From: a virus
Virus record (IMG/VR): IMGVR_UViG_3300042482_000882
Span: 1-26,212 of that record
DNA length: 26,212 nt
Reading direction: 5' to 3' (one strand)
This document shows, piece by piece, positions 60 through 12,292 of the stretch (positions are counted from its first letter, which is position 1; each line of letters starts with the position of its first letter). The notes under the pieces were generated by a model. That model did not search any database and had not been told where the DNA came from. It was given only the letters and a program-made list of their open reading frames with translations. The translations under genes were made by a program, and so were the position numbers.

Positions 60-1079
60 CTAAACCCTCCACCAAGCCCGCCAGTCCGCCTTACGCGAAG
101 GCACCGCGTAGGTCTTGAGCACCAGCGCCGTCGAAGAATGCCCCATCTGATGCGCTGTTTTGCCAGCATCCTGGCACCGTCCGAGGTGGTAGGTAGCGAA
201 GGAGTGGCGGAGGGCATTTTCCGGCAGCATGGCCCACGGCACCACGCCCTCGTTGTTCAGCCGCTCGATCAAAGCCTCCCTCTCCCGATAAAGCCGGAGC
301 GATTTCGCCGGCACGATCAGCCCCGATTTTCCTTTGAAAAATTCCTTCCGCCTCGCCAGCGGCTCCGTGAAATCCACGATCCGCTCCGGCAGGCCCGAGC
401 TCTGTTTAGAAACCTCCCGCCGAACCTCAATCTGGCCGGTCTTGGGATCGACATCCTCCCACCGCATTCGATGGACCTCGATGGACCGCAGGCCCGCAAA
501 GGCACCGAGAAGAAACCAAGCGCGCAAAGCATCCGACATCTCCGCATCCAGAATCGACCGCAGTTCCTTCGCCGAGATCAGGGACCGTTTACTCTCAGCC
601 TCCGGCGCCACGACGCGGCGGAATGGATTTCGGTCTAGAAGCTCCATGTCGACGCACCACCGAAAGAACCCGGAGGCGTAACGATGCCACCCCGCCCGCG
701 TGGTCGGCGCGCCCTTAATCTTTCCAAAGACCCGAGCCGCCTGCATCGGCGACACCGCCGCCACCGCGCCAGGGAACGCAACCAAAAGCTCCCCGCATAT
801 TTTTTCCAGTTTCTCACGATGCCGCTCCGAAGCCCCCACCTTGCTCGCTATGTAATCCCGCACCGCCGACTTCATCGACATCCCCGAAGCCGACTGCTCC
901 AAGAGCGAATCCGTCCCACCCTTCTGAAGTTTCTCCAAAAGCCCCGGCCCCGCCGCCCAAGCCTCCGCCTCGGTGCGGTAAAACCGGCGGATCCTTTTGC
1001 CAAAAATTTTCTGTGGAATCGTCAACTTCCAAGGCGTCGAAGGGCGCTGCGGGTAGGGAGTGACAAGATAGGCGCTCAT
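60..1079 (-). CDS. int: Tyrosine recombinase (phage integrase)
   Basis: This is a 339-residue site-specific recombinase that would integrate and excise the phage at a tRNA gene. An N-terminal arm-binding region covers about residues 1-60, a SAM-like core-binding domain about 66-155 (ending RWCVDMELLDRNPF), and the catalytic domain about 165-335. Catalytic residues visible are R198 (AGLRSIE), K225, R291 in NALRHSFATY, H314 (MGHSS) and nucleophile Y324 (LKTYAVP). The usual first histidine of the HxxR box is N288, a variant seen in some integrases. The frame is open to 1121, but I chose the ATG at 1079. The longer start would place the three TGTTGCCC repeats (1084-1111) inside the gene, whereas they look like integrase arm sites. 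The gene sits beside the att core, as expected. No structure was recognised after the stop; positions 1-59 hold only a C-rich tract. Confidence 0.95.
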   Translation of the reverse strand: MSAYLVTPYPQRPSTPWKLTIPQKIFGKRIRRFYRTEAEAWAAGPGLLEKLQKGGTDSLLEQSASGMSMKSAVRDYIASKVGASERHREKLEKICGELLVAFPGAVAAVSPMQAARVFGKIKGAPTTRAGWHRYASGFFRWCVDMELLDRNPFRRVVAPEAESKRSLISAKELRSILDAEMSDALRAWFLLGAFAGLRSIEVHRMRWEDVDPKTGQIEVRREVSKQSSGLPERIVDFTEPLARRKEFFKGKSGLIVPAKSLRLYREREALIERLNNEGVVPWAMLPENALRHSFATYHLGRCQDAGKTAHQMGHSSTALVLKTYAVPSRKADWRAWWRV

Positions 1080-1083
1080 GGTC

Positions 1084-1111
1084 TGTTGCCCACTTGTTGC
1101 CCGTGTTGCCC
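1084..1111. promoter_or_regulatory. Three direct repeats, putative integrase arm-type sites
   Basis: The word TGTTGCCC occurs at 1084-1091, 1095-1102 and 1104-1111, all in the same orientation and spaced 11 and 9 bp. They lie immediately upstream of the integrase ATG and on one side of the tRNA-derived core at 1222-1277. Two more copies in the same orientation lie on the other side at 1314-1331. This is the arrangement of arm-type integrase binding sites in an attP, with the near set also placed for autoregulation of the integrase gene. The repeats are seen directly; the role is inferred. Confidence 0.7.
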
Positions 1112-1221
1112 GAAATCGCAACTATTTTCTTCCACTAGCCTCCACATCCCTCCCGTTGTTTCTGAAAGCCAACCACCCGCCAACCCGCATAAAACCTAGC
1201 CCAAATCGTCACAAGTCGCTC

Positions 1222-1277
1222 TGCCGGCGGCGGGACTCGAACCCGCACTCCGCTTTCGCGAAAACGGATTTTAAGTC
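1222..1277 (-). other. attP core: 3' fragment of tRNA-Leu(UAA)
   Basis: Read on the minus strand, this stretch matches the 3' part of a bacterial tRNA-Leu(UAA). It has the anticodon loop CTTAAAA, the 3' anticodon stem TCCGT, a long class II variable arm, the T arm (GCGGG, TTCGAGT, CCCGC), a 7-nt acceptor strand CGCCGGC and discriminator A. No CCA follows. The 5' half is absent: the bases before the loop (AGCGA) cannot pair with TCCGT. Phages that integrate into tRNA genes carry such a 3' fragment in attP to restore the gene. The predicted attB is therefore a host tRNA-Leu(UAA) gene. Confidence 0.85.
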
Positions 1278-1313
1278 GCTTTCTCGGGTTTGTTTTTCAA
1301 TGACTTGCGGGAG

Positions 1314-1331
1314 TGTTGCCCGTTGTTGCCC
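1314..1331. promoter_or_regulatory. Two direct repeats, putative second arm of attP
   Basis: TGTTGCCC occurs at 1314-1321 and 1324-1331, 10 bp apart and in the same orientation as the three copies at 1084-1111. The tRNA-derived core lies between the two groups. The last base overlaps the stop codon of the amidase gene. A single copy in the opposite orientation at 1460-1467 is inside the amidase coding sequence and is probably chance. Confidence 0.65.
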
Positions 1332-1939
1332 TAAAGGACTTTATTTAGAGCCGCGAGGAGGGCGGCGTGGGCGGCGGGGGAGCAGTCGTCTTTGCGGCCG
1401 GGGGCGATGTCGGCGTGGCGCAGGATGTTTGCGAGGGGGATGTGGTGTTCGCGGAGGATGGGCAACAAGTATTCCACGGCGCTGAGGAGGGCGTCTTCGC
1501 TGAGCGGAGTTTGATAGGTGTCTCCTTCCCAGGCCATGCCGACGCTGAATGAGTTGGCGTCTTTGCGACCTTGCCACGAGGAGACTCCGGCGTGCCAGGT
1601 TCGCTGGGTGGGGAGGGCGAGAGTCGTGCGTTTTCCGTTGCGGGCGATTATGCAGTGATACGAGACTTTGCTCACGGGGTCACAGCACCATGAGACGCTG
1701 CCCGCGTAGGCTCCGCTCGTGTGGTGCAAGATCACATGGGTGGGCTTGATGACGCGGCCCGCGCTGATGTTTGGGGTGCGCTTGTTCGTCTGCTGGTAAA
1801 ACTTCGGCTCGGGCTTGAGGGTGCCGGAGGTTTTGGCCGGGGAGGTTTTGGCGGGCTTCGCGGGCTTCGGCTCAGGCGCGGGCGCGGGGGATTGCGCCGG
1901 GCGTGGCAACATGAAGAAGCGGGCGAGGAGCGAAATCAT
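1331..1939 (-). CDS. N-acetylmuramoyl-L-alanine amidase (endolysin)
   Basis: This 202-residue lysis enzyme would cleave the amide bond between N-acetylmuramate and the peptide stem at the end of infection. The Amidase_2 (T7 lysozyme-like) domain covers about residues 65-200. Probable zinc ligands are H72 or H73 (ILHHTSG), H175 (LRHADIAPGRKDDCSP) and C186, with H116 also nearby. The N-terminus begins with a short hydrophobic stretch (residues 1-12), then a Pro/Ala/Lys-rich linker to about residue 45. It could be a weak signal anchor, but is too short to be sure. The ATG at 1939 overlaps the TGA of the upstream lipoprotein gene (ATGA), and a Shine-Dalgarno-like AAGGA lies 4 nt before the start. 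It is the last gene of the lysis cassette and abuts attP. Confidence 0.93.
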   Translation of the reverse strand: MISLLARFFMLPRPAQSPAPAPEPKPAKPAKTSPAKTSGTLKPEPKFYQQTNKRTPNISAGRVIKPTHVILHHTSGAYAGSVSWCCDPVSKVSYHCIIARNGKRTTLALPTQRTWHAGVSSWQGRKDANSFSVGMAWEGDTYQTPLSEDALLSAVEYLLPILREHHIPLANILRHADIAPGRKDDCSPAAHAALLAALNKVL

Positions 1940-2187
1940 TTGTCCTTCAGGGCGGGCATGGTTTTTTGGAACTCGCCGAGGGCGTTCCAGAGGTCGCGGT
2001 TCGCGGCTTCGCCTTCGCTGAGGCGTGGCTCAAAGCGCACGGTGGCGCGGATGTGGAGCGTGCCAGCCTCGCCGATCCGGTCGCCGAATGGAGGCATCGG
2101 GACGGCCACGCACGAGGTCAGGAAGGCCATTGCGAGGAAGAGCCAGCCGAGGATCATCAACACGGCGGCGACTTGCTTGGGGGTCAT
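1936..2187 (-). CDS. Small lipoprotein, possible outer-membrane spanin
   Basis: This 83-residue protein has a signal peptide with a hydrophobic core at about residues 6-24 and a lipobox LTSC, so C26 is the probable lipidated residue. The mature part is about 58 residues with no recognised domain. Between a holin-like gene and the endolysin gene, a short lipoprotein is most simply an o-spanin (Rz1-like), which disrupts the outer membrane with an inner-membrane partner. The likely partner is the protein at 2385-2654. The start overlaps the upstream stop (ATGA), and its own stop overlaps the amidase start. Lipoprotein nature is well supported; the spanin role is inferred from context. Confidence 0.7.
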   Translation of the reverse strand: MTPKQVAAVLMILGWLFLAMAFLTSCVAVPMPPFGDRIGEAGTLHIRATVRFEPRLSEGEAANRDLWNALGEFQKTMPALKDK

Positions 2188-2357
2188 TTTTCTTTTCGCA
2201 GCAGATTGATCAATCCCGTGAGGCCGAGCCCCGCCGCCACGATTTGGTTCTGGAGCTCGGGTTCCAGACGCAGGCCCAGAGCAGTGGCCAGTAAAATCGC
2301 ACCCCTCCAGGAAGACGATTCGGAGGCTCTGTCGAGAATGTAAAAGATTGCTTTCAT
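2184..2357 (-). CDS. Small holin-like membrane protein
   Basis: This 57-residue protein starts MKAIFYILDR and ends NLLRKEK. A central WRGAILLATALGL stretch and a C-terminal IVAAGLGLTGLINLL stretch form two short hydrophobic segments separated by LEPELQNQ. The pattern is common among tiny phage lysis-cassette membrane proteins thought to act as holins. The ATG at 2357 lies 21 nt after a TTTGACAC word, and the stop overlaps the lipoprotein ATG (ATGA). With the amidase and two spanin-like genes, it completes a plausible lysis cassette. The reading frame is convincing; the holin role is inferred from size, hydrophobicity and place. Confidence 0.65.
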   Translation of the reverse strand: MKAIFYILDRASESSSWRGAILLATALGLRLEPELQNQIVAAGLGLTGLINLLRKEK

Positions 2358-2370
2358 GCTTCGCGGCGGG

Positions 2371-2378
2371 GTGTCAAA
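2371..2378 (-). repeat. TTTGACAC junction word (first of about ten)
   Basis: The minus strand reads TTTGACAC here, 21 nt before the start of the holin-like gene. Other exact copies are at 8803-8810, 11479-11486, 18581-18588, 19321-19328, 20645-20652, 23260-23267 and 23551-23558. One-mismatch copies (TTTGACAA) are at 6925-6932 and 21168-21175. All exact copies lie at junctions between consecutive genes. The distance to the next start is 20-21 nt in five cases, 26-27 in two and 55-58 in three. At 6925, 18581, 20645 and 23260 the embedded TGA is the stop of the upstream gene. The function is unknown. Confidence 0.75.
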
Positions 2379-2384
2379 GGCCGC

Positions 2385-2654
2385 TCACTGGCGGTTGGCG
2401 AGGATTTGCTCGATGCGTTTGGTTCTCTCGTCAATGCGGGCCAATGTCTCGGCTCGGTCGGCGGCGACGGCTTCGATTTTTTGCAAGCGGGCTTCCTGCT
2501 TTTCGTTTTCGATCTCCACGCGGGTGACTTTTTCGGGGAGAATCCACCAAGCCTGGCTGATCGAAAATATCGTGGCGACGAGCGCCAGCGCGGCGATGGC
2601 CTCCCCGATGGAGAGGCGCACGCCGGGGCGATTGCGGACGGTTTCGGTAGACAT
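2385..2654 (-). CDS. Single-span membrane protein with coiled coil, possible inner-membrane spanin
   Basis: This 89-residue protein has a basic N-terminus, one transmembrane segment at about residues 17-38 (ending AWWILP), then a charged helical tail to the end with heptad-like spacing (VEIENEKQEARLQKIEA). By the positive-inside rule the tail would be periplasmic. That is the topology of an i-spanin (Rz-like), and a lipoprotein partner lies two genes downstream. Alternatives are an accessory holin or a haemolysin XhlA-like protein. The ATG overlaps the TAA of the large fibre gene by one base (TAATG). The gene and topology are well supported; the name is tentative. Confidence 0.6.
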   Translation of the reverse strand: MSTETVRNRPGVRLSIGEAIAALALVATIFSISQAWWILPEKVTRVEIENEKQEARLQKIEAVAADRAETLARIDERTKRIEQILANRQ

Positions 2655-5185
2655 TAGCTGTTAGCCTGGGCGATGAGATTTCCGACGATGGCCGTGGTAG
2701 CCACATTGGCGAGGCGCTCGGTGTTCAAGGCCGAAACTTTCGTGAGTTCGGTGCTTAACTCGGAACGCACGGCTGATGCCACGGTGGCCGCTGAGGGCGC
2801 TGCGACCCCGGCGATGGCGGCCTCGAGAAGGCTTTGGTCTGCGGGATCGCTCGGCAGCGCATCGGTCTTCGATTTGATCGCCGAAAGCTGGGTCGAGTTG
2901 CTATCGAGTTCTTGGCGAATCTCGATGGCGGTCGGGCCGCTGGCGCTGGTGAGCGTGCGGGCATTGTAGTCCCAGATGTCGGCGGGAGTGACTGATGCCG
3001 GCGCGTTCGTGAGGTTTGTCACCGTGGCAAGCGTGCCGGATGGCGAGAGTCTCGAAGACACCGAGGCATCCAGACGCCCGAGTTCTGTTGCGAGTTCAGT
3101 TCGCACAGCTCCGGCCACTGTTGAGGCTGATGGCGCCGAGGATGTCGGGATGCTGTCGATTTTTCCGCCGACGCGCTCGAGGTCGCTGCGGATGGCTGCG
3201 ACAAGCGAAACTTCCGAGAGGTTCTGGTTGCCGATCGCTCCCACGATTGCGTTGAGCACGGCTTGGCCGTCGCCTTCGTTGAGGAGCGAGCCTTCCACGG
3301 CGGCGCTGATCTGCGCGGTGGTGGGGATGTCGGAGACCGCTGCGGGCGAGGCCGGGAGGTTGTCGGTTTTGCTTTTGATCGCAGAGATGTCCGAGTTGGC
3401 TGGCGCGGTGTAAGAGGCCGAGGCCAGTCGGCTTGAAACGGAGGCGTCGAGATTGCTGAGTTCGGTCAGCTCGGCGCGAACGGCTGAAGCCACAGCGGCG
3501 GCTGTCGGGGCGCTGGTCGGGGCTGTGTAGGCTGCCGAGGCCAGTCGGCTAGAAACCGAGGCATCCAGATTAGAAAGCTCGGTCAGTTCGGTGCGAACGG
3601 CGGAGGCCACAGAGGCGGCACTAGGCACGCTCGGCAGGTCGCCGGTCGTGAGGGTTGAGCGGCTGGAGATCGTGGCGTCGAGGTTGGCGAGCTTGGTCGA
3701 GTTGGAATCCATTTCCTCACGGATTTGGACGACGCTGGGGATCGTGAGACCAAAGATGGCAGCTTCAACGAGGCTTTGGTCGGCGGGGTCGCTCGGCAAC
3801 GCATCGGTCTTGCTCTTGATGGCCGAGATGTCCGAGGTCGGGATGTCAGCGGCCACGGCGCGGGTGCTGGTGGCGACATCCAAGCGCGAAAGCTCGGTGG
3901 ATAGCTCCGTTCTCACCTGGCTGGCGATTTGGCTCGGCGTCGGCACGGTCGGCGCATTGGTAAGGGTTGTCGCGGTATCGACCAATCCGCCGGTGATGGT
4001 GCGCGTTGCAGCAGCCCAAACGGCATTTGCAACATCCGACGCACTTAGCGCCGCAGTGCCGACGGTATTATCGACGGGGACTCCCGTTGCCACGGTTGCA
4101 GGGCTTGGAACGGCGCAGGCGCCGGTCAACGCGCCGCTCGCGTAGCTCACGCCGAGGCGGACATTGCCGACCGCTGGCATTTCGCCTTGCGTTGCGTCCA
4201 CAAGTATTTTTGCAGCGCCGGAATCGACCCAGTTAAAAATCGCTTGATTCAGCGAGTTCCTTTTGAGGCGGACGAATCCGGTGACGGGTGACATCCCGCG
4301 CAGGCCATATTCTAACTCGCGGACCTCGACTACTCCTGCATTCCCACTATTGGCAATGCCGGTTGCCGCAGTGAGACCGACCGAGCCTAAGCCAAAGGCA
4401 TTCCCGACGGCGCGGGTGGCGGTGACAGACCCGCTGGACGCGTTTGTGACGCCAGGACCAGAGACACCGCCGGTTGCATTGCCGGTAATGGCAATAACTC
4501 CCCCAGCAGCATTATTTACGCCACTGCCACCTGATGCACTTCCGCCGGTTGCATTCCCGGTAATGTTGATCGTGCCGGTGGAAGCGTTTCCTACAGCGGG
4601 ACCGACTGCTCCGAGGCAGTTGCCCGTGATGTTGATCGTGCCGGCGCTGAAATTTTCAAGTGCATTGCCTCCAGCTCCGCCGCCGCCAGTAGCCGTGCCG
4701 ACAAAATTGATTGTTCCACCCCATACATTGCCAATCGCACCGCCTAAGCTTGAAGATTTCATATCCCCCGTTGCGTTGCCGGTAAAATTCAGCGTGCCAT
4801 TTCCCGTCAGGTTTACCGGGCGGCTGCCGCCACTCGTATTAACCGAGGTCACATTGCCGACAATCGAGGCGGAAAGCGGTGCGCTAAATGCGCAGTTGAC
4901 AACGTTCGCCACGCCGGATACATTATTTTGCAAAATGTTGGCGGTCAGAGTCAAGCCAGCGGCGAGGGTAAATGTGCCGCCTGCTGTGGCACCACCGAAA
5001 GTGTCGTTACGCAGTTGGCCGGAGCCTCCGAGGTTAGTATCGACATTGATCGCGATGGCAAATGAGTTTGAGACCAGGACATCGCCTGCGGCGAATGTGA
5101 CAGCCGATGCCGTGCCGCCGGGCGCGGTCGCCCAGACATCGGTGGCGTTGATGTTTCCTGCCTTGCGGGCGTAGTATGTAGGCAT
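2654..5185 (-). CDS. Large repetitive tail fibre or tail spike protein
   Basis: At 843 residues this is the largest fibre-type protein here. Residues about 60-270 are rich in Gly, Asn, Thr and Val with recurring NxTGNxTG turns (such as GTINITGNATGG), which suggests a beta-helix or beta-solenoid. Residues about 370-830 hold repeats of the type AVRTELTELSNLDASVSSRL, interspersed with DISAIKSKTDALPSDPADQS units, and look like a helical or trimeric shaft. An AAGGA lies about 10 nt before the ATG at 5185, one of the few Shine-Dalgarno sites in the window. It follows a 95-residue gene and precedes the lysis cassette, so it is the last structural gene. A receptor-binding or host-surface role is inferred; no enzymatic motif was seen. 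Confidence 0.8.
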   Translation of the reverse strand: MPTYYARKAGNINATDVWATAPGGTASAVTFAAGDVLVSNSFAIAINVDTNLGGSGQLRNDTFGGATAGGTFTLAAGLTLTANILQNNVSGVANVVNCAFSAPLSASIVGNVTSVNTSGGSRPVNLTGNGTLNFTGNATGDMKSSSLGGAIGNVWGGTINFVGTATGGGGAGGNALENFSAGTINITGNCLGAVGPAVGNASTGTINITGNATGGSASGGSGVNNAAGGVIAITGNATGGVSGPGVTNASSGSVTATRAVGNAFGLGSVGLTAATGIANSGNAGVVEVRELEYGLRGMSPVTGFVRLKRNSLNQAIFNWVDSGAAKILVDATQGEMPAVGNVRLGVSYASGALTGACAVPSPATVATGVPVDNTVGTAALSASDVANAVWAAATRTITGGLVDTATTLTNAPTVPTPSQIASQVRTELSTELSRLDVATSTRAVAADIPTSDISAIKSKTDALPSDPADQSLVEAAIFGLTIPSVVQIREEMDSNSTKLANLDATISSRSTLTTGDLPSVPSAASVASAVRTELTELSNLDASVSSRLASAAYTAPTSAPTAAAVASAVRAELTELSNLDASVSSRLASASYTAPANSDISAIKSKTDNLPASPAAVSDIPTTAQISAAVEGSLLNEGDGQAVLNAIVGAIGNQNLSEVSLVAAIRSDLERVGGKIDSIPTSSAPSASTVAGAVRTELATELGRLDASVSSRLSPSGTLATVTNLTNAPASVTPADIWDYNARTLTSASGPTAIEIRQELDSNSTQLSAIKSKTDALPSDPADQSLLEAAIAGVAAPSAATVASAVRSELSTELTKVSALNTERLANVATTAIVGNLIAQANS
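3417..3650 (-). repeat. 117-bp tandem repeat inside the fibre gene
   Basis: Two adjacent units begin at 3417 and 3534, each with GCCGAGGCCAGTCGG. They encode near-identical 39-residue blocks containing LTELSNLDASVSSRLASA, YTAP and AAVASAVR. The spacing is an exact multiple of three, so unit gain or loss would keep the frame and change fibre length. More diverged copies occur at about 2745-2830, 3050-3130 and 3860-3930. Confidence 0.75.
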
Positions 5186-5188
5186 GGC

Positions 5189-5476
5189 TTAGAGTCCTTT
5201 CGCGACGAGGTAGGATTGAAGGGCGGCTTGGATCGCGCCGATGGCGGTTTGCTCTTCAGCGGAGGCTTGGGAGAGCGATCCGAGGACCACGGCTTTGCGG
5301 TGTTCCATGCCTGCCTGCTCGACCACACCATCTTCGATTCGGGTCGGGATGAGGGACATGGCTACATTCGCGTCTGGTTGTCCAGTTTCGGGTTTGTAAA
5401 ATCCAGTGATCGCCAGTTGGAGAGAATAACGGTCGTAGGATTTTGAGTCGATTTGGAGTGGAGTGGATGCTGTCAT
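5189..5476 (-). CDS. Small tail-region protein, unknown function
   Basis: This 95-residue protein begins MTASTPLQIDSKSYDRYSLQ and contains PTRIEDGVVEQAGMEHRKAV, then an Ala/Gln-rich helix ending LVAKGL. I chose the ATG at 5476; the frame runs upstream to 5695, but that part overlaps the previous gene and has low-complexity His/Arg composition. The stop is 3 nt before the large fibre start, so the two are probably co-translated. No domain was recognised. The position between fibre genes suggests a tail-tip component or fibre-assembly helper. Confidence 0.75.
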   Translation of the reverse strand: MTASTPLQIDSKSYDRYSLQLAITGFYKPETGQPDANVAMSLIPTRIEDGVVEQAGMEHRKAVVLGSLSQASAEEQTAIGAIQAALQSYLVAKGL

Positions 5477-5493
5477 GGTGTTGGATTTGAGGT

Positions 5494-5874
5494 TTAAGAA
5501 AATTGGAGGTTGGTTTTGTTCGACCACGCGCCGGTGGCGGAGCTTTCGGTGCTGGTGGTGCCGGAGGCGTTGAAGATGGTGCGGGAGATTTCCCAGGCGG
5601 CGCTGTCGTAGACGCTGCCGGTGTTGGGGAAGTCCGAGTAAAGGAGAAAGCCGAGGAAGGTGGTGGTGCCGTCGGAGGAGAGATCGAATGCCCACACGCG
5701 GTCGGGGGCGTCTTTTGTGCCGGCCAATTTGTAGACTTCGCCGGTGGAGGGGTGCTTGGCGTAGATTCGGCGGTCGGTGTGATTGACCGAGATCGCGCCG
5801 GGGGCGAGCTGGTCGGCGGTTGGGATTTTGCCCGCGACCGTCGAGAGTTTGGGAACGATTTGTGTGTTTGCCAT
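5494..5874 (-). CDS. Small fibre-type protein sharing a C-terminal domain with the 543-aa fibre
   Basis: This 126-residue protein has an N-terminal part (TQIVPKLSTVAGKIPTADQL, then SVNHTDRRIYAKHPSTGEVY) typical of short phage tail-tip modules that precede a display domain. Its C-terminal half, about residues 60-126, resembles the C-terminus of the 7152-8783 fibre. The shared pattern is FDxSxDGxTTxxGxLL, a Trp followed by xxxRxxxNAxG, then SATGxWxN and a final LxF. The same domain is thus presented by two genes in one genome. The exact role is unknown; structural tail or fibre tip is likely. Confidence 0.75.
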   Translation of the reverse strand: MANTQIVPKLSTVAGKIPTADQLAPGAISVNHTDRRIYAKHPSTGEVYKLAGTKDAPDRVWAFDLSSDGTTTFLGFLLYSDFPNTGSVYDSAAWEISRTIFNASGTTSTESSATGAWSNKTNLQFS

Positions 5875-5913
5875 GTGGCGGGTTTTGATTTCGCGGAGTT
5901 AGACCCCCCGCGT

Positions 5914-5940
5914 GGCGGAGCGCTATTTGAGCGCCCCGCC
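5914..5940 (-). terminator. Strong 11-bp hairpin between fibre genes
   Basis: An inverted repeat with arms GGCGGGGCGCT and AGCGCTCCGCC (minus-strand sense) and a CAAAT loop lies between the coiled-coil fibre gene and the 126-residue gene. In the minus-strand transcript the one non-Watson-Crick pair is G-U; in the opposite transcript it would be A-C, so the structure suits minus-strand RNA. No U tract follows. It may be a weak terminator, an RNA-stability element or an attenuator. Confidence 0.55.
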
Positions 5941-5956
5941 GGGGTTGGGTTAGTTA

Positions 5957-6874
5957 CTAGTAGCTGCCGCCGTCGATCGTGGTCTCGAGGGCAGTGATGC
6001 GGGTCTCGTGGTCGGCCACATCGGCCTCGACTGCGTCCAGGCGGCTGTCCGCGCTGGCGTTTTCGAGGGTGGTGATTCTGTTGGACAACGAGGTATCGGC
6101 TGTCGAACGAGTCGAGCTTTCCGAATCCAGATTGCTCTGGACTGCGGCGATGTCGGACTCGAGGCCGGACACATCCGATGCGCGGGAAGCGGCTTCGGCT
6201 GAGACTGCGGCGATGCGAGCGGATTCCTCGGAAACGATATCTGCTTCCGCTGCGGTGACTCGTGTCGTCAGCGCGCTGAGGTCGCTCGAGACGCCATTGA
6301 TCGAGGTCTGAAGACCGGAGTCGCCAGCGATGCGTGCGGTCTCTTCAGCGGCGATGTCGTCGTTGATCGCGAGGATGGCGGCTGCCAGGGCGTTGTCGTT
6401 GGTCAGATCGACCGAATTGATCAGGGTGACGATTTCCGCGAAGCTGTCCTTGTCGGCGCTTGATGCTGAGAGGATCGCGTCGATGCGGCCTTTTTCCGTG
6501 GTGATCTTGCCGTCGAGAACGAGGTCGGCTGCTTCGCGAGCGGATTGCTCGGCGGAAACTGCCGCGATGCGCGCTGTCTCCTCAGCGGAGATGTCGTCAG
6601 CGAGGTCGCTTTCGGCACCTTGGGCGCGGGAGATTTCGGCGTTGAGGTTCGAGGTGAGAGTCGAATCCGCTGCGCTGCGCAGGTCGGCTTCGGCTTGGAC
6701 CGCGTCGTTGACGAAGGTCTTTGTTGCGAATGTGTGGCTGCCGCCGATTGCGACTGGGCCGTTTGCTGTTCCTACAAAAAGTGAGGAATTTTGAAGGTCC
6801 ATTGCCAACTCGCCAGTCTGAAGACTGATCGGAGCGCCTGAACCGCGTTTGATTTTAAGGATTGGATTTGCCAT
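5957..6874 (-). CDS. Coiled-coil tail fibre protein
   Basis: This 305-residue protein opens with KIKRGSGAPISLQTGELAMD and SSLFVGTANGPVAIGG. That motif is common at the N-terminus of phage tail fibres and tropism-type proteins and probably anchors them to the tail tip. The rest, about residues 50-300, is a long Ala/Glu/Ser-rich coiled coil with repeats such as AEETARIAAVSAEQSAREAA and ends LETTIDGGSY, without a large globular tip. It may need a partner to supply the tip. The start at 6874 lies 58 nt after a TTTGACAA word, with a CCACC-rich leader and no Shine-Dalgarno site. Confidence 0.85.
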   Translation of the reverse strand: MANPILKIKRGSGAPISLQTGELAMDLQNSSLFVGTANGPVAIGGSHTFATKTFVNDAVQAEADLRSAADSTLTSNLNAEISRAQGAESDLADDISAEETARIAAVSAEQSAREAADLVLDGKITTEKGRIDAILSASSADKDSFAEIVTLINSVDLTNDNALAAAILAINDDIAAEETARIAGDSGLQTSINGVSSDLSALTTRVTAAEADIVSEESARIAAVSAEAASRASDVSGLESDIAAVQSNLDSESSTRSTADTSLSNRITTLENASADSRLDAVEADVADHETRITALETTIDGGSY

Positions 6875-6927: not shown

Positions 6928-7155
6928 TCAAAAAGTGCCGGCGTCGATGACGGGGATCATGAGGGCGTAGGCGCTCGCGGAGGGCGACCATCGGTAGGGC
7001 ATTCCCTCGTCAAGGGCCATGTAGAGGCGGTCGGTTTTTCCGATGCTCGGAAAGCTCGAGCGGCTCGGGTATTCGACGACGCTCGGCGGGAGGGTGAGTT
7101 CGAACGAGGAGAGGTCGAGCGTCTGCGTGAGGTTGCTTTCGGTGATTGTTGTCAT
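6928..7155 (-). CDS. Small tail-tip protein
   Basis: This 75-residue protein carries EYPSRSSFPSIGKTDRLYMA and LDEGMPYRWSPS. This short module (a FPSxG turn, then a LYxALD strand and a YRW strand) is frequent in phage tail and fibre proteins. Its ATG overlaps the stop of the 543-residue fibre gene (ATGA), so it is probably translated by reinitiation and made with it. Its stop lies inside TTTTTGACAAT, one of the junction words. It may be an adaptor or trimerisation module; the function is not certain. Confidence 0.75.
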   Translation of the reverse strand: MTTITESNLTQTLDLSSFELTLPPSVVEYPSRSSFPSIGKTDRLYMALDEGMPYRWSPSASAYALMIPVIDAGTF

Positions 7156-8783
7156 GCGAATGCAAGGGTCTCCCGGTTAGCCCACGATCCGGTGGCGGAG
7201 GCGGTGGCGAGGATTTGGCCGGCGGCGTTGAGGGTGGATCGCTTGACGGTCCAGCTTGTGGCGGTCTCGGGGAGTGCTGGCGCGGCTGGGCGGTCGGCAT
7301 TGAGGAGGCGACCGCTGTAGGTCGTGAGGCCGTCCGCGCTGATGTCGAAGGCGTAGAGGTAAAGCGTCGGATCGATTGGCGGCTGGACGGTGCGGAGGCC
7401 TAGGGCGGTGCAGGAGATTTGCATTCCGGCGCTCGGGGCGGTGTCGAAGGTGATCGTGCCGGTGGCTTCCGAAACGAGGTAGTCGGTGCCGGGGGTTTGC
7501 GTGACGCCGTTGAGGGCGACGAGGACATGCTCGGGGTCGGAGCTGACGAGGCCGTCGATCAAGAAGGTGGTGGCAACGCCGTTGCCGATGCGGACGGTGG
7601 TGTTGATCGAGAGGCCGGGGGCCGAGGCGATGATGTAGGACGAAAGGCCAGTGATCTCGGTGGCGGCGTGGGTGTGGACCGTGTCGGCTTTTGAAAGATC
7701 GACCCAGAGCTTGAATGCGGGGGAGGCGGAGGGATCGAAGGCGGCCCAGTAGCTGCCGGGCGGTGGATATCCGGGGTTCGGCTCTCCGATGCGGATGTAG
7801 AGTTCGCCGTTGTGGCTGACGACTTGGCCGGGGAAATAGTCCGCGCCGTTGTTGTAGGCTCCTTGGTAGTCTACTGGCTCGGGTTGGAGGGCGGTGTCGG
7901 CGAGAGCGCCCTGTGCGGAGGTGGCTTTGCCGTCTATCTGGGTTTGCAGGCTCCCGATGCTGGCGGCGGCTTCGGCGATGGAATCCAGCGCGGCAGGATC
8001 AAGGTTCGCGGCGAGGTAGTCGATTCTCTGGCCGAGGGCTGTGTCTGCGCTGGCAAGGTCGGCGAGGTCGGCAGGCAGGCCGGTGATCTCGCTCTTGAGG
8101 TGGGTGTGCGCGGAAGGAGTGAAGGTCGTTGGCTTGCCGGTCAGGCTGGACCAATCGACGGGCGGGGAGACGGCGACGACGGCGCTTGCAAAGTCGGTGA
8201 TCTGCGATGCGGTGTGCGTGTGGCTGCTCGGCGGGAAGGTGGCAGGCTTGTTGAGGACGCTGTCCCAGGTCGGCGGCGGGGCGAGCTGCGCGATGGCTTG
8301 GGCCGTTCGGAGCGGGGTCATCCATTTCGCGTTATCGGTGCCTGCGGTGGCTTCGGCTTGGGTCGCCTTGCCGTCGGGGAGCGCGGCGGGGGTGGCTTCG
8401 TCGCCGAGGATGACGGAGTTTTGAACTTCGACTTGGAGCGTGGCGGTGCGCAATGCCTGGCTCGGTGCGGTCCAGCGGATCTCGAGGAAGGCGCTGATGC
8501 TGGCAGGATCGGAGGAGAAGGCGGCCTCGACCGGGACGGTGTTGAGATCAAGGATGGTTTGGCCGGGGGCCGCCAAAGCGAGAAAGTTAGAGTCGGAGAA
8601 GGAGGACTTGAGGGCGATGGTGGTCTGGGTGCCTGCGGGGGGATCGACGGCCACGCCGTTTTCGACAAAGACGACCTCGATGGGGACTTGGTCGCGGCGT
8701 TTTAGGACGAGCGTCTGCAATGCGACATTGCTCGCGGCGGACTTAACGAATCGCCGGTTTTTTGAATCGAGGAAGAGTTTCAT
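7152..8783 (-). CDS. Tail fibre protein, paralogue A
   Basis: This 543-residue protein is a clear paralogue of the 10435-11460 product. Both start with a beta-rich domain (KRRD, PxEVxF, PASIxAxLE, a Trp, then VIxGDE) and continue with an ATQAEAxAGxDNxKWMxPLR type linker at about residues 155-180. This linker is well known from phage tail fibres. Next come repeated collar units of the DLTxKPxTFxPSxHTH type and a helical stretch. A beta-rich C-terminal domain with FDISADGLTTY and SATGSWANRETLAF matches the end of the 126-residue protein at 5494. It probably forms side fibres that touch the host surface. A 6-bp hairpin lies directly before the ATG, and a TTTGACAC word lies 27 nt upstream. Confidence 0.88.
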   Translation of the reverse strand: MKLFLDSKNRRFVKSAASNVALQTLVLKRRDQVPIEVVFVENGVAVDPPAGTQTTIALKSSFSDSNFLALAAPGQTILDLNTVPVEAAFSSDPASISAFLEIRWTAPSQALRTATLQVEVQNSVILGDEATPAALPDGKATQAEATAGTDNAKWMTPLRTAQAIAQLAPPPTWDSVLNKPATFPPSSHTHTASQITDFASAVVAVSPPVDWSSLTGKPTTFTPSAHTHLKSEITGLPADLADLASADTALGQRIDYLAANLDPAALDSIAEAAASIGSLQTQIDGKATSAQGALADTALQPEPVDYQGAYNNGADYFPGQVVSHNGELYIRIGEPNPGYPPPGSYWAAFDPSASPAFKLWVDLSKADTVHTHAATEITGLSSYIIASAPGLSINTTVRIGNGVATTFLIDGLVSSDPEHVLVALNGVTQTPGTDYLVSEATGTITFDTAPSAGMQISCTALGLRTVQPPIDPTLYLYAFDISADGLTTYSGRLLNADRPAAPALPETATSWTVKRSTLNAAGQILATASATGSWANRETLAFA

Positions 8784-8800
8784 GCCGCTGACCCAGCGGC
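8784..8800 (-). promoter_or_regulatory. Hairpin touching the start codon of fibre A
   Basis: The arms GCCGCT and AGCGGC around a GGGTC loop end exactly at the ATG of the 543-residue fibre gene. Upstream lie TTTGACAC (8803-8810) and the dispersed repeat (8856-8882). A hairpin flush against a start codon could control ribosome access. The structure is seen; the role is inferred. Confidence 0.5.
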
Positions 8801-8855
8801 GGGTGTCAAATCGAGCGACTCTCCGAGTCTTTACTGAAGCGGCTCGGAGGGGTTG

Positions 8856-8882
8856 ACCACAGAGGACACAGAGGACACGGAG
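8856..8882. repeat. Dispersed CACAGAGGACACAGAG-type repeat, copy 1
   Basis: The plus strand reads ACCACAGAGGACACAGAGG and continues ACACGGAG. Such 9-bp periodic repeats are scattered between genes in many Verrucomicrobiota, Planctomycetota and related genomes. Related copies here are at 19337-19372 and 23569-23605. An additional inverted repeat (CTCCGAG at 8821-8827, CTCGGAG at 8843-8849) lies between this copy and the fibre gene. Confidence 0.7.
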
Positions 8883-8928
8883 CGACTAGGTCCAAAAAAC
8901 GCTGCCGGAAAAGGAGAGTGCGGCAAGG

Positions 8929-9048
8929 CTATTGACCTGTGCAGTCGCCAAGGTTGGCGAGGTCGAGCTGCCCCCAGTCGCGTGGAACCCATTTCCACTT
9001 CGGTCTTCCCATCGCCGGACGGGGGAGGAATTCGTCAGCCTGGCACAT
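8929..9048 (-). CDS. Possible 39-residue protein after the adhesin gene
   Basis: A short frame starts at an ATG overlapping the end of the adhesin gene in another frame and ends at a TAG. The predicted product (MCQADEFLPRPAMGRPKWKW, then VPRDWGQLDLANLGDCTGQ) has three Trp residues and two Cys, and looks more protein-like than shadow frames. It may be a real short gene, or the remnant of an adhesin C-terminus disrupted by a frameshift. There is no Shine-Dalgarno site. Support is weak. Confidence 0.3.
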   Translation of the reverse strand: MCQADEFLPRPAMGRPKWKWVPRDWGQLDLANLGDCTGQ

Positions 9049-10438
9049 TCCAAAGCAGTTGCGGGCCGTAATAGACCGCCTTGGCTTCGGTATAGCCTGC
9101 GTAGACGGCGGCAACACGGGGAGCGCCGTAGTTAAAGGCAGAGCTTACCAACAAAGAAATTGTTTCCGTTGAAGTCCCCCCTGGCCCGCTGGCTGTGATC
9201 GTGACGGTGAAGGGTCCCTCGGTGGTGGCTAGCCCGGAGATGAGACCTGTTGAGGCATTTATGCTTAACCCCTCCGGCAGACCGCTGGCTGACCATGCTG
9301 TGATTTGTCGATTCAAGCCATCTGCCAAAACAGAAGGTGTTCCGCTGAAATTTGCGTTTGCAGTTAGACTGAAATTTTGACCCGCAATAATTTCAGGGGC
9401 GTAATAGGTAACTTCTGAAATCGTGCTTTTGTAAACTTCTACAGCTTTTGAGCTAGGTGTCGGCCAAATATCAAAAGCGAGGTATTCAGCCCCCGCCGAA
9501 ATATCACCTTCTTCCCCAAAATAACCGGTAAAGCCAGAGGGGGGCGGAATCTCAATCCTGTTTAATTTTTCCCACTTTTCGCCCCATGAAAATGTGTCCA
9601 CATAAAACGAATTGCGGTGAATGAGAATTGTCCCGTCCGCAGATAACGATATTTCAGATTGGGTTTGGGGCTGGAGAAAATTGATAGTGCTGCCGACTTG
9701 AGTCCATGCTCCAGAGATTAAATCGTAGGTTCGGATTGTATTTAAACCCATCGCCACAACTCGCGTTCCAGAGTTGTTTATTTTAACCGAATAAAGTGTC
9801 GAGTCTGGCAGAGTGATGTTTGCGCCAACTCGGACAGCTCCCGACCCTGAGACGCCTTGAAAAACGGCAATCGTCTTTTGAGAATTAAAGCTTCCAAATA
9901 CAACGCAATACAATCCGTTTCTGGACAAAGAACAATCGCCCGCAAAATCTATATTGAAATTGTTATATGTTTTTGAAGAAATAAATTGAGTTGGACTTCC
10001 GCTGCTTATCTGCCCCCATTTTATATATTTATAATTGTATGAAACGGCCTGAGATGTTTGCCCCTGCGCATGTGCAGAATAAGCAAGATACCTGTCGCTA
10101 GTCGCATCGAACCCGTAAACAAGATCGTTATTGGTCGATGCGGTGAATGTATAGAGTTGACCTGAGACACTTATGTAAATGCCAGCATGTATCCGGTAAG
10201 CGTAATTACTAGACCCTATTTCTAGGCATTTTACAAAAGTTGCGCCAGAAGAGTTTACCGTTTGCTGTAATTGCGAGGTAAAGGTCGGCTGACTAAAAGT
10301 CCATCTCTTATATATATTTGGTGTAGAATATGCAAGATCCCCGAAGGACGAAACCCGCAAACTATTAAACTGTTCAAAATCCGAGGCTGAGATTGCCCCG
10401 AGTCGGCTCCACCCGACTTGCTTAAGCGTCACGCTCAT
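9035..10438 (-). CDS. Putative tail adhesin: propeller-like region plus Ig-like (He_PIG) domain
   Basis: This 467-residue protein starts at the ATG overlapping the stop of the upstream fibre gene (ATGA). Residues about 160-310 hold beta-propeller-like blades with recurring SLSxNGxYC, KINNSGTRVVAMGLNTIRTY and SLSADGTILIHR patterns. Residues about 350-430 look like a putative Ig / He_PIG domain: ASGLPEGLSINASTGLISGL followed by PFTVTITASGPGGTSTETIS. The last 25 residues repeat a Y-x-G pattern (VYAGYTEAKAVYYGPQLLW) seen at the ends of some phage tail proteins. The coding DNA is visibly more AT-rich than the flanking fibre genes, which suggests recent exchange. A receptor-binding role is inferred; it might also be a decoration or tail-tip protein. 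Confidence 0.8.
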   Translation of the reverse strand: MSVTLKQVGWSRLGAISASDFEQFNSLRVSSFGDLAYSTPNIYKRWTFSQPTFTSQLQQTVNSSGATFVKCLEIGSSNYAYRIHAGIYISVSGQLYTFTASTNNDLVYGFDATSDRYLAYSAHAQGQTSQAVSYNYKYIKWGQISSGSPTQFISSKTYNNFNIDFAGDCSLSRNGLYCVVFGSFNSQKTIAVFQGVSGSGAVRVGANITLPDSTLYSVKINNSGTRVVAMGLNTIRTYDLISGAWTQVGSTINFLQPQTQSEISLSADGTILIHRNSFYVDTFSWGEKWEKLNRIEIPPPSGFTGYFGEEGDISAGAEYLAFDIWPTPSSKAVEVYKSTISEVTYYAPEIIAGQNFSLTANANFSGTPSVLADGLNRQITAWSASGLPEGLSINASTGLISGLATTEGPFTVTITASGPGGTSTETISLLVSSAFNYGAPRVAAVYAGYTEAKAVYYGPQLLWNVPG

Positions 10439-11460
10439 GCTGTGACAATATAGAGCGTCGTGGCGCTGGGCGAAGCTGGCATGGTGGCGACGACGGCGAT
10501 GGCGGTGATGCCCCCCGTAATAGTCAAAAGCCGCGAGTCGTTGCCTTGGCAGAAGGTCCCGGCAGTCGTCCCAAAAGTGTGCGTGTGGTCTCCAAGTGCC
10601 ACCGTGCTGGATGTTGTGCCGGTCGGGATGCGGGCGAGGGCGAGCGTGCCGCTGGTGATGTCGGCGGCGGCGTGGGTGTGGGTAGACGGCGGGAAGGTGC
10701 TGGGGATATCGGTGAGGTCTTCGTAGCTGGTGACGCCGCCGCCGCTTGGCGTCTGCGGCACCCACGCGGTGCCGTTCCATGTGACGACTTGGCCGCTCGT
10801 GGCGCTCGATTGCGTGAGGGCTGAGAGCGGGTGCGTGTGAGTCGATGGCGGGAATGTGGAGGGCTTGTCGGTCAGGTCATTCCATGACGAGACGCCTCCG
10901 CCGCCGCCGAGCTCTTCGATGGCTTGGGCCACGCGCAAGGGCGACATCCACTTTGTATTGTCAGACCCGGCTTCGGCTTCGGCCTGGGTGGCGAGGAAAT
11001 TGGATGTCTCGCTGGTGTAAAAGAGCGGCAAGTCGGCTGGCGCGCCTTCGTCGCCGCGAATGACATCGTTGAAGATCGTGATCGGGAGCGTTAGCGAGGA
11101 TCCGACGGAGGTGCCACTCATCCATTGCACCTCGAGCATGGCGGTGATGCTGGCCGGTTCTGTAGGGAAAAGGGCCTCGAGTGCCGTGGTGTTGAGGTTA
11201 AATGCTCCACGGTAAACGGTGTCCGCGCCTGTGCCAGTGACTGAGAGCGTGTCGGTGGCAAGAAACTCCCCGGCGAAATCCGCCGAGGCCTTCACGCCCA
11301 CGCGGGCGATCGTGCCGACGGGCAGCGACTGGACGGCCCCGGCGCGCAGGAACTGCACCTCGAAAGCGTCGTTGTCTCGCCGTTTGAATTCCAGACGGGT
11401 GGCAGGGCGGGTGGCAGTGGTGAGAATCCGCCGCGTGTCGATGTCGATGTAGATGCGCAT
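10435..11460 (-). CDS. Tail fibre protein, paralogue B
   Basis: This 341-residue protein is a paralogue of the 7152-8783 fibre. The N-terminal domain runs to about residue 145 (LEFKRRDNDAFEVQFLRAG, PASITAMLEVQW, VIRGDEGAPADLP), followed by ATQAEAEAGSDNTKWMSPLR. Two collar units, WNDLTDKPSTFPPSTHTH and YEDLTDIPSTFPPSTHTH, come next, then a short Thr/Gly-rich end finishing ATTLYIVTA. It lacks the long C-terminal region of paralogue A; instead the AT-rich adhesin gene overlaps its stop, as if the distal tip were encoded separately. The start at 11460 lies 26 nt after a TTTGACAC word. Confidence 0.87.
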   Translation of the reverse strand: MRIYIDIDTRRILTTATRPATRLEFKRRDNDAFEVQFLRAGAVQSLPVGTIARVGVKASADFAGEFLATDTLSVTGTGADTVYRGAFNLNTTALEALFPTEPASITAMLEVQWMSGTSVGSSLTLPITIFNDVIRGDEGAPADLPLFYTSETSNFLATQAEAEAGSDNTKWMSPLRVAQAIEELGGGGGVSSWNDLTDKPSTFPPSTHTHPLSALTQSSATSGQVVTWNGTAWVPQTPSGGGVTSYEDLTDIPSTFPPSTHTHAAADITSGTLALARIPTGTTSSTVALGDHTHTFGTTAGTFCQGNDSRLLTITGGITAIAVVATMPASPSATTLYIVTA

Positions 11461-11462
11461 GG

Positions 11463-11747
11463 CTACTGTGTTGGGCTGGTGTCAAAGGCCTCCCACTTGC
11501 CGAGCGGGCAGCGCTCGGTGGCCATGCGCAATTTCGCCCAAGTGCTACAGCCACACTTGCGGCAACGGCCGGTGGCGTTCAGCGCGGCGGCGTCCCACTC
11601 GGGGCAGGCTTTGCATGTTTCTTCTCGGGTGGCAAGGGCTTCGGGTGGGGTGGTGGTGAAGCCGCTGCGGGCGAAGCGATGCGCGGCTTGGCCGAATTTG
11701 GCAAAAGCATTTTCGCGAAATGCAATGATGTGCTGTGGGAAATTCAA
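11463..11747 (-). CDS. Small zinc-ribbon-like protein in the tail module
   Basis: Four CxxC-type positions are visible: CKACPEW, then CRKCGC and RCPLGKW. This pattern is typical of a small zinc ribbon often found beside phage tail-tip genes. The start is uncertain because no ATG is available. I chose the TTG at 11747, which overlaps the upstream TGA and gives 94 residues starting with NFPQHIIAFRENAF. A TTG at 11795 would give 110 residues and a 52-nt overlap. The coding end contains TTTGACAC in frame (Phe-Asp-Thr), just before the fibre B start. A structural or assembly role is possible; no function can be assigned. Confidence 0.7.
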   Translation of the reverse strand: MNFPQHIIAFRENAFAKFGQAAHRFARSGFTTTPPEALATREETCKACPEWDAAALNATGRCRKCGCSTWAKLRMATERCPLGKWEAFDTSPTQ

Positions 11748-12292
11748 GAGAAGGTCAGAGTAACTATTGCTTTTTCTTCTTCGAAAGAAACCCAATCAGC
11801 GGGATAAACGCGACCATTTATTGAAACGCTTGTTTCTGCGTATTCGGTAACACCGCACCGCATCCATATTTGCCCACCGATATATCCGTCCATAATTTCG
11901 AAATAAATAAAGCCTTCATCAGTAATATAAACATCTGCAAACATTGTGTATTCAACTAAAAATCCAGATGAATTTGTTACTGATGAATCATATTCAGATT
12001 CTCCACAATTTGGAGTAAACACAACACCGCTCTCCCCCGTCTCAGGATCAGGGCAAGACCCGTTGGTTATGTTAAATGTTCCGCTTCTTTGTGGAAGCCA
12101 ATCTTGAAAAGCTGGCCAAGTGTAATCAATTTGTAATGTATTCCAATTTAATAAAATGCCCTGCAAGGCGGGGGACGGCGCTACGCACCCACCCCCACCC
12201 CCGCAACACGCGCACTCGACGGCGCGGAGGCCGCCGCCTTCGGTGTCGGTTTTGACCTTGATGGCTCCTGTGGATGTGCGGCCGAGGGTCAT
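11744..12292 (-). CDS. Cys-rich tail-module protein, unknown function
   Basis: The product has 182 residues. The N-terminus (GAIKVKTDTEGGGLRAVECA, then CCGGGGGC) carries a C-x-C-C-Gly5-C cluster that could bind metal or form disulphides. The remainder is beta-strand rich and acidic (EYTMFADVYITDEGFIYFEI, ending VTLTFS). DNA of the C-terminal two thirds is AT-rich compared with the N-terminus, suggesting a mosaic joint near 12170. The heptad repeat at 12301-12394 precedes the start. I do not recognise the family; the position suggests a tail-tip or baseplate protein. Confidence 0.7.
   Translation of the reverse strand: MTLGRTSTGAIKVKTDTEGGGLRAVECACCGGGGGCVAPSPALQGILLNWNTLQIDYTWPAFQDWLPQRSGTFNITNGSCPDPETGESGVVFTPNCGESEYDSSVTNSSGFLVEYTMFADVYITDEGFIYFEIMDGYIGGQIWMRCGVTEYAETSVSINGRVYPADWVSFEEEKAIVTLTFS

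Follow-up and report, generated by a model that had tools for sequence, protein, structure and literature searches.

Gene layout of the fibre locus

The window, by which we mean the whole stretch of DNA analysed (26,212 nucleotides), is a virus record of 26.2 kb (IMG/VR IMGVR_UViG_3300042482_000882). It encodes two tail fibre proteins, A and B, an adhesin gene located between them and a shorter gene for a 126-residue protein, all on the - strand. The features used in the subsequent analyses are the following.

5494..5874, - strand: 126-aa protein; its start is of the fibre type and its C-terminal module is that of A
7152..8783, - strand: fibre A, 543 aa; the core paralogue, which lacks both a shaft end and a docking partner
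7155..7358, - strand: C-terminal module of A, common to the 126-aa protein (41%, E 5.9e-12)
9035..10438, - strand: adhesin, 467 aa; read as the exchangeable tip of B
9050..9118, - strand: docking repeat of the adhesin, RVAAVYAGYTEAKAVYYGPQLLW; found by pattern and by an independent model
9146..9391, - strand: He_PIG Ig-like domain of the adhesin (Pfam, 38.9 bits)
10435..11460, - strand: fibre B, 341 aa; N-terminal module, TQAEA linker, HTH collars and conserved end; read as a shaft
10438..10515, - strand: shaft end of B, its last 26 residues, final letters VVATMPASPSATTLYIVTA

The ATG of the adhesin overlaps the stop codon of B as ATGA, an overlap that the first-pass annotation had noted. Since it appears to be an ordinary stop-start arrangement, we rejected a frameshift fusion of B and the adhesin as the normal product. 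We also rejected an assembly artefact, because the order B, tip, A recurs in the loci L038, L040, L043, L066, L080, L104, and L114.

Relatives of fibre A are encoded by 118 viral stretches, and the best 80 of the 118 were kept; relatives of the tape-measure protein are present in 27 loci. A contig of a lake Verrucomicrobia assembly encodes a close relative of fibre A (76%), the sole other match being weak and in an actinobacterium. Because of this single contig, the host probably belongs to the Verrucomicrobia.

Fibres A and B are related by an old split

The first-pass annotation had described A and B as fibres that share their N-terminal domain, the TQAEA linker, and the HTH collars. The homology is far above chance. 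A tblastn search of A on its own contig aligned A residues 1-218 with B at 41% identity (E 3.3e-35), and the profile-profile comparison gave 198 aligned columns at 42% identity (E 1.1e-39), a stretch that takes in the linker and the first HTH collar. The same tblastn search matched A residues 476-542 to the protein at 5494 (41%, E 5.9e-12), in agreement with the C-terminal domain that had been assigned to both. A Pfam scan found no family in fibre B at E up to 1, and BppU_N (PF10651) matched neither A nor B at that threshold.

We inferred a tree of 88 N-terminal modules, which has few columns and in which many inner forks are unresolved. The 13 B-type modules group together with support 100/99; they sit on a branch of about 2.4 changes per column, distant from every A module. 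Of the 60 distinct spanning loci, which cover both fibre A and the tail genes beside it, 9 carry B and 51 lack it; two of the nine (L114 and L118) came from a search with B itself, so that 7/58 is the fairer share. This distant single clade and this patchy presence argue against a duplication within this phage lineage. The finer branching points the same way. The B of the window is nearest to those of L104, L038, L113, and L114, whereas the A genes of L038, L113, and L114 belong to a different supported clade from the A of L104 and of L006, the latter being identical to that of the window. The disagreement between the clades implies that B moved between lineages or was often lost, and that it is no fresh local copy. 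Judging from these sequences, we regard B as an old paralogue, patchily inherited or transferred, which split from A long ago. Hence, of the duplication followed by tip swapping that had been suggested, the homology and the swapping find support, and the duplication within this lineage does not.

One locus has more than one module of each type: along L118 (10001-16783), B-type and A-type N-terminal modules alternate as B, A, B, A.

The adhesin gene is replaced as a unit

The adhesin contains an Ig-like domain of the He_PIG family (PF05345, 38.9 bits for a cut-off of 24). The repeats N-terminal to it read, by eye, like a beta-propeller. The adhesin matches the L080 tip (28%, E 9e-25), in which PD40 scores 20.8 bits, under its cut-off of 20.9. 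The structural model of the adhesin, built with two sequences only, is poor (mean pLDDT 37), with the exception of the Ig-like domain. The adhesin is most closely related to the start of a tail protein of 2,024 residues in L015 (54-55%). No further relative was confirmed when the window protein served as query, the two-row alignment led back only to the L015 contig, and a search of phage records gave three weak matches, restricted to the Ig-like and C-terminal parts. Inside the L015 protein (331-6405) there is also an N-terminal module of the fibre-A type, together with about ten He_PIG stretches; the adhesin module thus occurs both free and within a giant protein.

The GC content is 0.42-0.44 at 9401-10400, within the adhesin, versus 0.59-0.68 in the neighbouring fibre genes; the tips of seven other B carriers have 0.45-0.52. 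When the window is compared with L104, the DNA of B matches at 92% across the first 660 bases and 88% across the last 155, nothing matches in the tip, and the match returns at 82% just before fibre A. More generally, the tip DNA has no match at E 1e-5 in any of the ten B-carrying loci compared. Because the tip lacks a DNA match between matching flanks, we interpret the gene as a cassette that is replaced as a unit.

A conserved shaft end precedes a docking repeat

The first-pass annotation stated that B ends early. Its end, VVxx(M/L)PxxPxxxTLYIV or near it, is instead kept in 12/12 contigs with this B type, and we rejected a truncation for this reason. The gene after B carries a repeat, YxG..YYG..LW, in 11 of these 12 contigs by pattern, and L040 has a divergent form of it at the start of the tip; the pattern was written after the first tips had been seen, and L038 and L039 are identical across the compared 4.5 kb, which leaves 11 distinct contigs among the 12. 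Across 114 loci, the pattern turned up in none of the remaining ORFs of 50 residues or more on the oriented strand. Many tips have little in common beyond this docking repeat, and its place in them varies. It is at the tip end in the window and in L038, L039, L043, L080, L104, L113, and L114, mid-tip in L066 and L118, and at the tip start in L016 and L040. In L016, the pair of B and tip is located between two other tail genes, and not before fibre A. In two loci (L120 and L121), a B-type start is combined with a different end; there, fibre A comes directly next, without a docking-repeat gene.

The pairing recurs in other phages

Outside this family, the pairing was first seen in a mycobacterial prophage (L125), found via collar similarity, where two adjoining gene pairs show it. 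Three phage records with collar similarity alone (L124, L126, and L127) had neither element in the genes read. Further records were chosen by one element alone. In those chosen by the docking repeat (L128-L138), the preceding gene has the shaft-end motif in 11/11 cases; in those chosen by the shaft end (L139-L150), the next gene has the docking repeat in 11/12, the exception being Limnohabitans phage DC31, which has no docking gene adjoining. These records were picked for variety rather than randomly, many are actinophages and partly related, and the motifs and several partners were assigned by eye. The proteins encoded after the shafts of other phages include Gly_rich_2 and DUF7257 proteins and, as annotated, a purple acid phosphatase and a BACON-domain protein. 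In Streptococcus phage Javan440 (L145, 2500-2925), an unannotated ORF after the shaft gene bears the docking repeat.

We then built two profile models, one of the shaft end and one of the docking repeat, from 23 pairs of other phages, leaving out the family of the window, and ran them on 14,432 ORFs of 115 loci. The docking model matched 14 ORFs (10 contigs, some present in two or three loci), every one directly after B, and it matched the window adhesin with E 9.4e-4. The shaft model matched the B ends in 10 contigs, with that of L104 at only E 0.11; residues 321-341 of the window B were matched with E 0.0028. Its remaining matches are internal sites of fused fibre proteins. L016 and L040 were missed by both models at E 0.5, and reversed ORFs, used as a control, gave zero matches. 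In 27 phage regions (1,268 ORFs, training pairs included), a script found that 23 of the 24 docking matches follow a C-terminal shaft match; the 24th (Soups) also follows a shaft end, on reading. The one C-terminal shaft match without a partner in these regions is that of DC31.

Natural fusions and bacterial genomes

Seven loci (L058, L061, L064, L073, L074, L090, and L104) carry the shaft motif inside one fibre-A-type protein with a further domain. The order is the same in all of them: the shaft motif, immediately a docking-like stretch (GATTASAVxLG), a glycine-rich linker, and the domain. Scores of the docking-like stretch are low (3 to 7 bits), and in 7/7 it lies directly after the shaft motif. 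The fused domain resembles the separate tip of L016 at 30-31% across about 260 residues (E 7e-24 for L090, 1e-23 for L104). We call this domain LamG-like because the L016 tip weakly matches the L066 tip (E 5e-5), which has a clear Laminin_G_3 domain; L016 and L073 have no Pfam match to Laminin_G_3 of their own. The same kind of tip is thus fused in some phages and separate in another, which is the usual sign of parts that work together.

The Pfam family PF24243 (Phage_tail_C, a phage tail tip domain) scored 52.2 bits in the Troje shaft and 22.1 in that of phage 29, for a cut-off of 23.7, these being the two other-phage shafts scanned; the shaft end of fibre B has no match to it. In 288 Verrucomicrobiota genomes, the family occurs at 17 places in 12 genomes, with 12 places above the cut-off. 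By eye, 3 of the 17 (L152, L154, and L165) have it at a protein end with a docking-like repeat starting the next gene, and 11 have a single docking-like repeat (e.g., IYLGSxxLN) straight after the motif in the same protein; three weak places (L160-L162) misfit or cannot be judged. The docking model gave one correctly placed match in these loci (L165, E 0.16), the other partners being assigned by eye, which makes for a softer count. A search of 296 Actinomycetota genomes gave no match to PF24243 at E 1e-4, which does not establish its absence.

Comparison with known systems

The model of fibre A residues 1-120 has a pLDDT of about 80-89. Foldseek matched it best to NF5 (E 3.9e-4) and to baseplate chains of Staphylococcus phage 80alpha (E 5.2e-4), with large rmsd; the shorter 80alpha chains reach TM scores of 0.47-0.51 on the target. 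Phage 29 follows the pairing, and its shaft aligns with FibU (gp68) of 80alpha along all 390 residues. FibU and the phage 29 shaft have a BppU-type anchor, to which the N-terminal module of B may correspond. They are like B in having a shaft and a similar shaft end, followed in phage 29 by a gene with a docking repeat, and unlike it in that a collagen-like shaft replaces the HTH collars. The gene after the phage 29 shaft is itself unlike the adhesin, encoding a dissimilar protein of 131 aa, and goes unnamed in the consulted part of the 80alpha study (PMC7048315). According to that part, FibU has no density past residue 123, class averages show thin fibres with a terminal 4 nm knob, which the authors think is perhaps FibU, and deletion of FibU leaves infectivity unaffected (PMC7048315). 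The knob could be the C-terminal part of FibU itself or the product of the next gene.

Mycobacteriophage pairs (e.g., Seanderson gp6/gp7) have the same succession of a shaft end and a docking-repeat gene, annotated as a minor tail protein. Their docking repeat is mostly at the tip start, whereas that of the window is at the tip end. The shaft of a Seanderson-type pair is nearly identical to a solved chain, "tail collar fibers, gp4" (9d93), which we take to be from Bxb1. No solved chain matched the Seanderson and Midas2 tips, and a comparison of four docking-type tips with solved structures returned nothing relevant.

A separately encoded adhesin on a fibre is a known kind of arrangement. In T-even phages, the fibre made of gp37 is capped by gp38, a separately encoded and exchangeable adhesin; the likeness lies in this exchangeable part, and we claim no common motif. 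Lactococcus phage TP901-1 similarly has a BppU-anchored protein with its receptor-binding protein, BppL, encoded directly after it, but its BppU lacks the shaft end and the docking model scores only 1.5 bits in BppL. What may be new, to judge by the searched literature, is the common connector and how widely it is spread. We did not find the pairing of shaft end and docking repeat in that literature, which excluded most subscription journals; the consulted parts of the reports on mycobacteriophages Douge, Corndog, and Mysterious do not describe it (PMC13033339, PMC13252515), nor does the consulted part of PMC6949934.

A probable two-piece fibre with an exchangeable tip

We consider it probable, from the gene sequences and their recurrence, that B and the adhesin make up one two-piece host-recognition fibre with an exchangeable tip. 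B would be the shaft, held at the tail tip by its N-terminal module and ending in a docking element of about 26 residues. The adhesin would be a separately translated tip, translationally coupled to B via the ATGA overlap, that plugs onto the end of B through the short YxG..YYG..LW repeat, whatever the position of this repeat in the tip. Unrelated tips could then swap as gene cassettes after the conserved shaft; they would be interchangeable because the contact is limited to two short elements. The sequences show that both elements are conserved, that they adjoin here and in other phages, that relatives have them joined in one polypeptide, and that the tip gene is flanked by a mosaic junction; from this we infer the contact between B and the adhesin, their presence in the virion, assembly, and receptor binding. 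Weighing against the reading are the misses of L016 and L040 by the models, the lone shaft end of DC31, the low scores of the docking-like stretch in the fusions, the partners assigned by eye, and the intact infectivity of 80alpha after deletion of FibU, whose phage 29 homologue has the shaft-end motif. Two receptor specificities on one virion, as the first-pass annotation proposed, are plausible.

The other accounts of these genes fare less well. The first-pass annotation took the adhesin for an insert between two fibres and proposed duplication with tip swapping; in such a history, A and B would be copies that arose in this lineage and later exchanged tips, and the adhesin would be a gene of its own. 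A and B are indeed adjoining homologues, and the GC content of the adhesin is foreign to its neighbours. We nevertheless think this history improbable, as B belongs to one old clade that spans phages and is lacking from most spanning loci, a repeat of the adhesin type occurs only after B, and B and its tip sit together at another site in L016. The pairing of repeat and shaft end, the models, and the fusions make the tip of B the better reading of the adhesin.

Conservation of tail gene order could also keep the two elements side by side while they do separate jobs and never touch. Tail gene order is kept, and the relatedness among the sampled actinophages would favour such a reading, to which we give slightly less credit again: many tips share little beyond the repeat, whose position ranges from start to end, the pair has moved jointly in L016, and the elements lie back to back in the fusions. 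Small genes directly after fibre genes often encode chaperones, and on this ground the adhesin-type protein might be an assembly chaperone of B with no part in the fibre. This strikes us as very improbable in view of how diverse the genes after the shaft are (Ig-like, LamG, Gly_rich_2, DUF7257, purple acid phosphatase, and BACON) and of the fused versions, which retain the tip within the fibre protein.

We are evenly divided on the broader proposition that a single connector is common to tailed phages of several bacterial phyla, with the shaft end and the YxG repeat as parts of one split folding unit. Because the docking element comes after the shaft element whether the two are in the same protein or in adjoining ones, they might be halves of a hairpin-like unit divided between proteins, of which we are less sure still. 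If the proposition is true, a tip could be swapped as a complete gene whatever its fold, and the crAssphage BACON protein, the product of the gene after the 80alpha-type upper fibre, and the products of other genes in this position, at present without assignment or annotated as "minor tail protein", would be recognition-fibre tips. Should the pairing itself hold, it would provide a sequence rule that assigns a small tail gene as tip to its fibre across phages with mostly unassigned receptor-binding parts. It would also offer a candidate identity for the knob of the 80alpha upper fibre and for unassigned mycobacteriophage minor tail proteins, and explain how very different adhesins are exchanged without rebuilding the shaft.

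Neighbouring elements and other variable genes

Directly before the start of fibre A (8784-8810) are a TTTGACA element and a short GCCGC/GCGGC hairpin that touches the ATG. Upstream of fibre A, TTTGACA is found in 68 and the hairpin in 63 of 70 distinct stretches, by a pattern written after some of them had been seen. They perhaps serve in translation control. The gap after the adhesin holds the repeat TCCGTGTCCTCTGTGTCCTCTGTGG (8857-8881), of which a Verrucomicrobia genome has 15 copies when up to 2 mismatches are allowed (control 0). The viral loci contain 26 distinct exact 15-base occurrences, of which 14 lie 86-88 bases before fibre A, five lie 24 bases before a g182-type gene, and seven lie on the opposite strand. 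Both spots adjoin the two sites of the B cassette, so the repeat may have a role in recombination.

A second variable low-GC gene (about 0.43) is located beside the fibres (11744-12292). It encodes a 182-aa protein whose first 30 or so residues are kept in most matching relatives and whose remainder differs. Finally, fibre A is split in L073, L074, L077, L090, L095, and L104: a first ORF bears a tip of its own, a small one of 82-95 residues comes next, and a third encodes the remainder.
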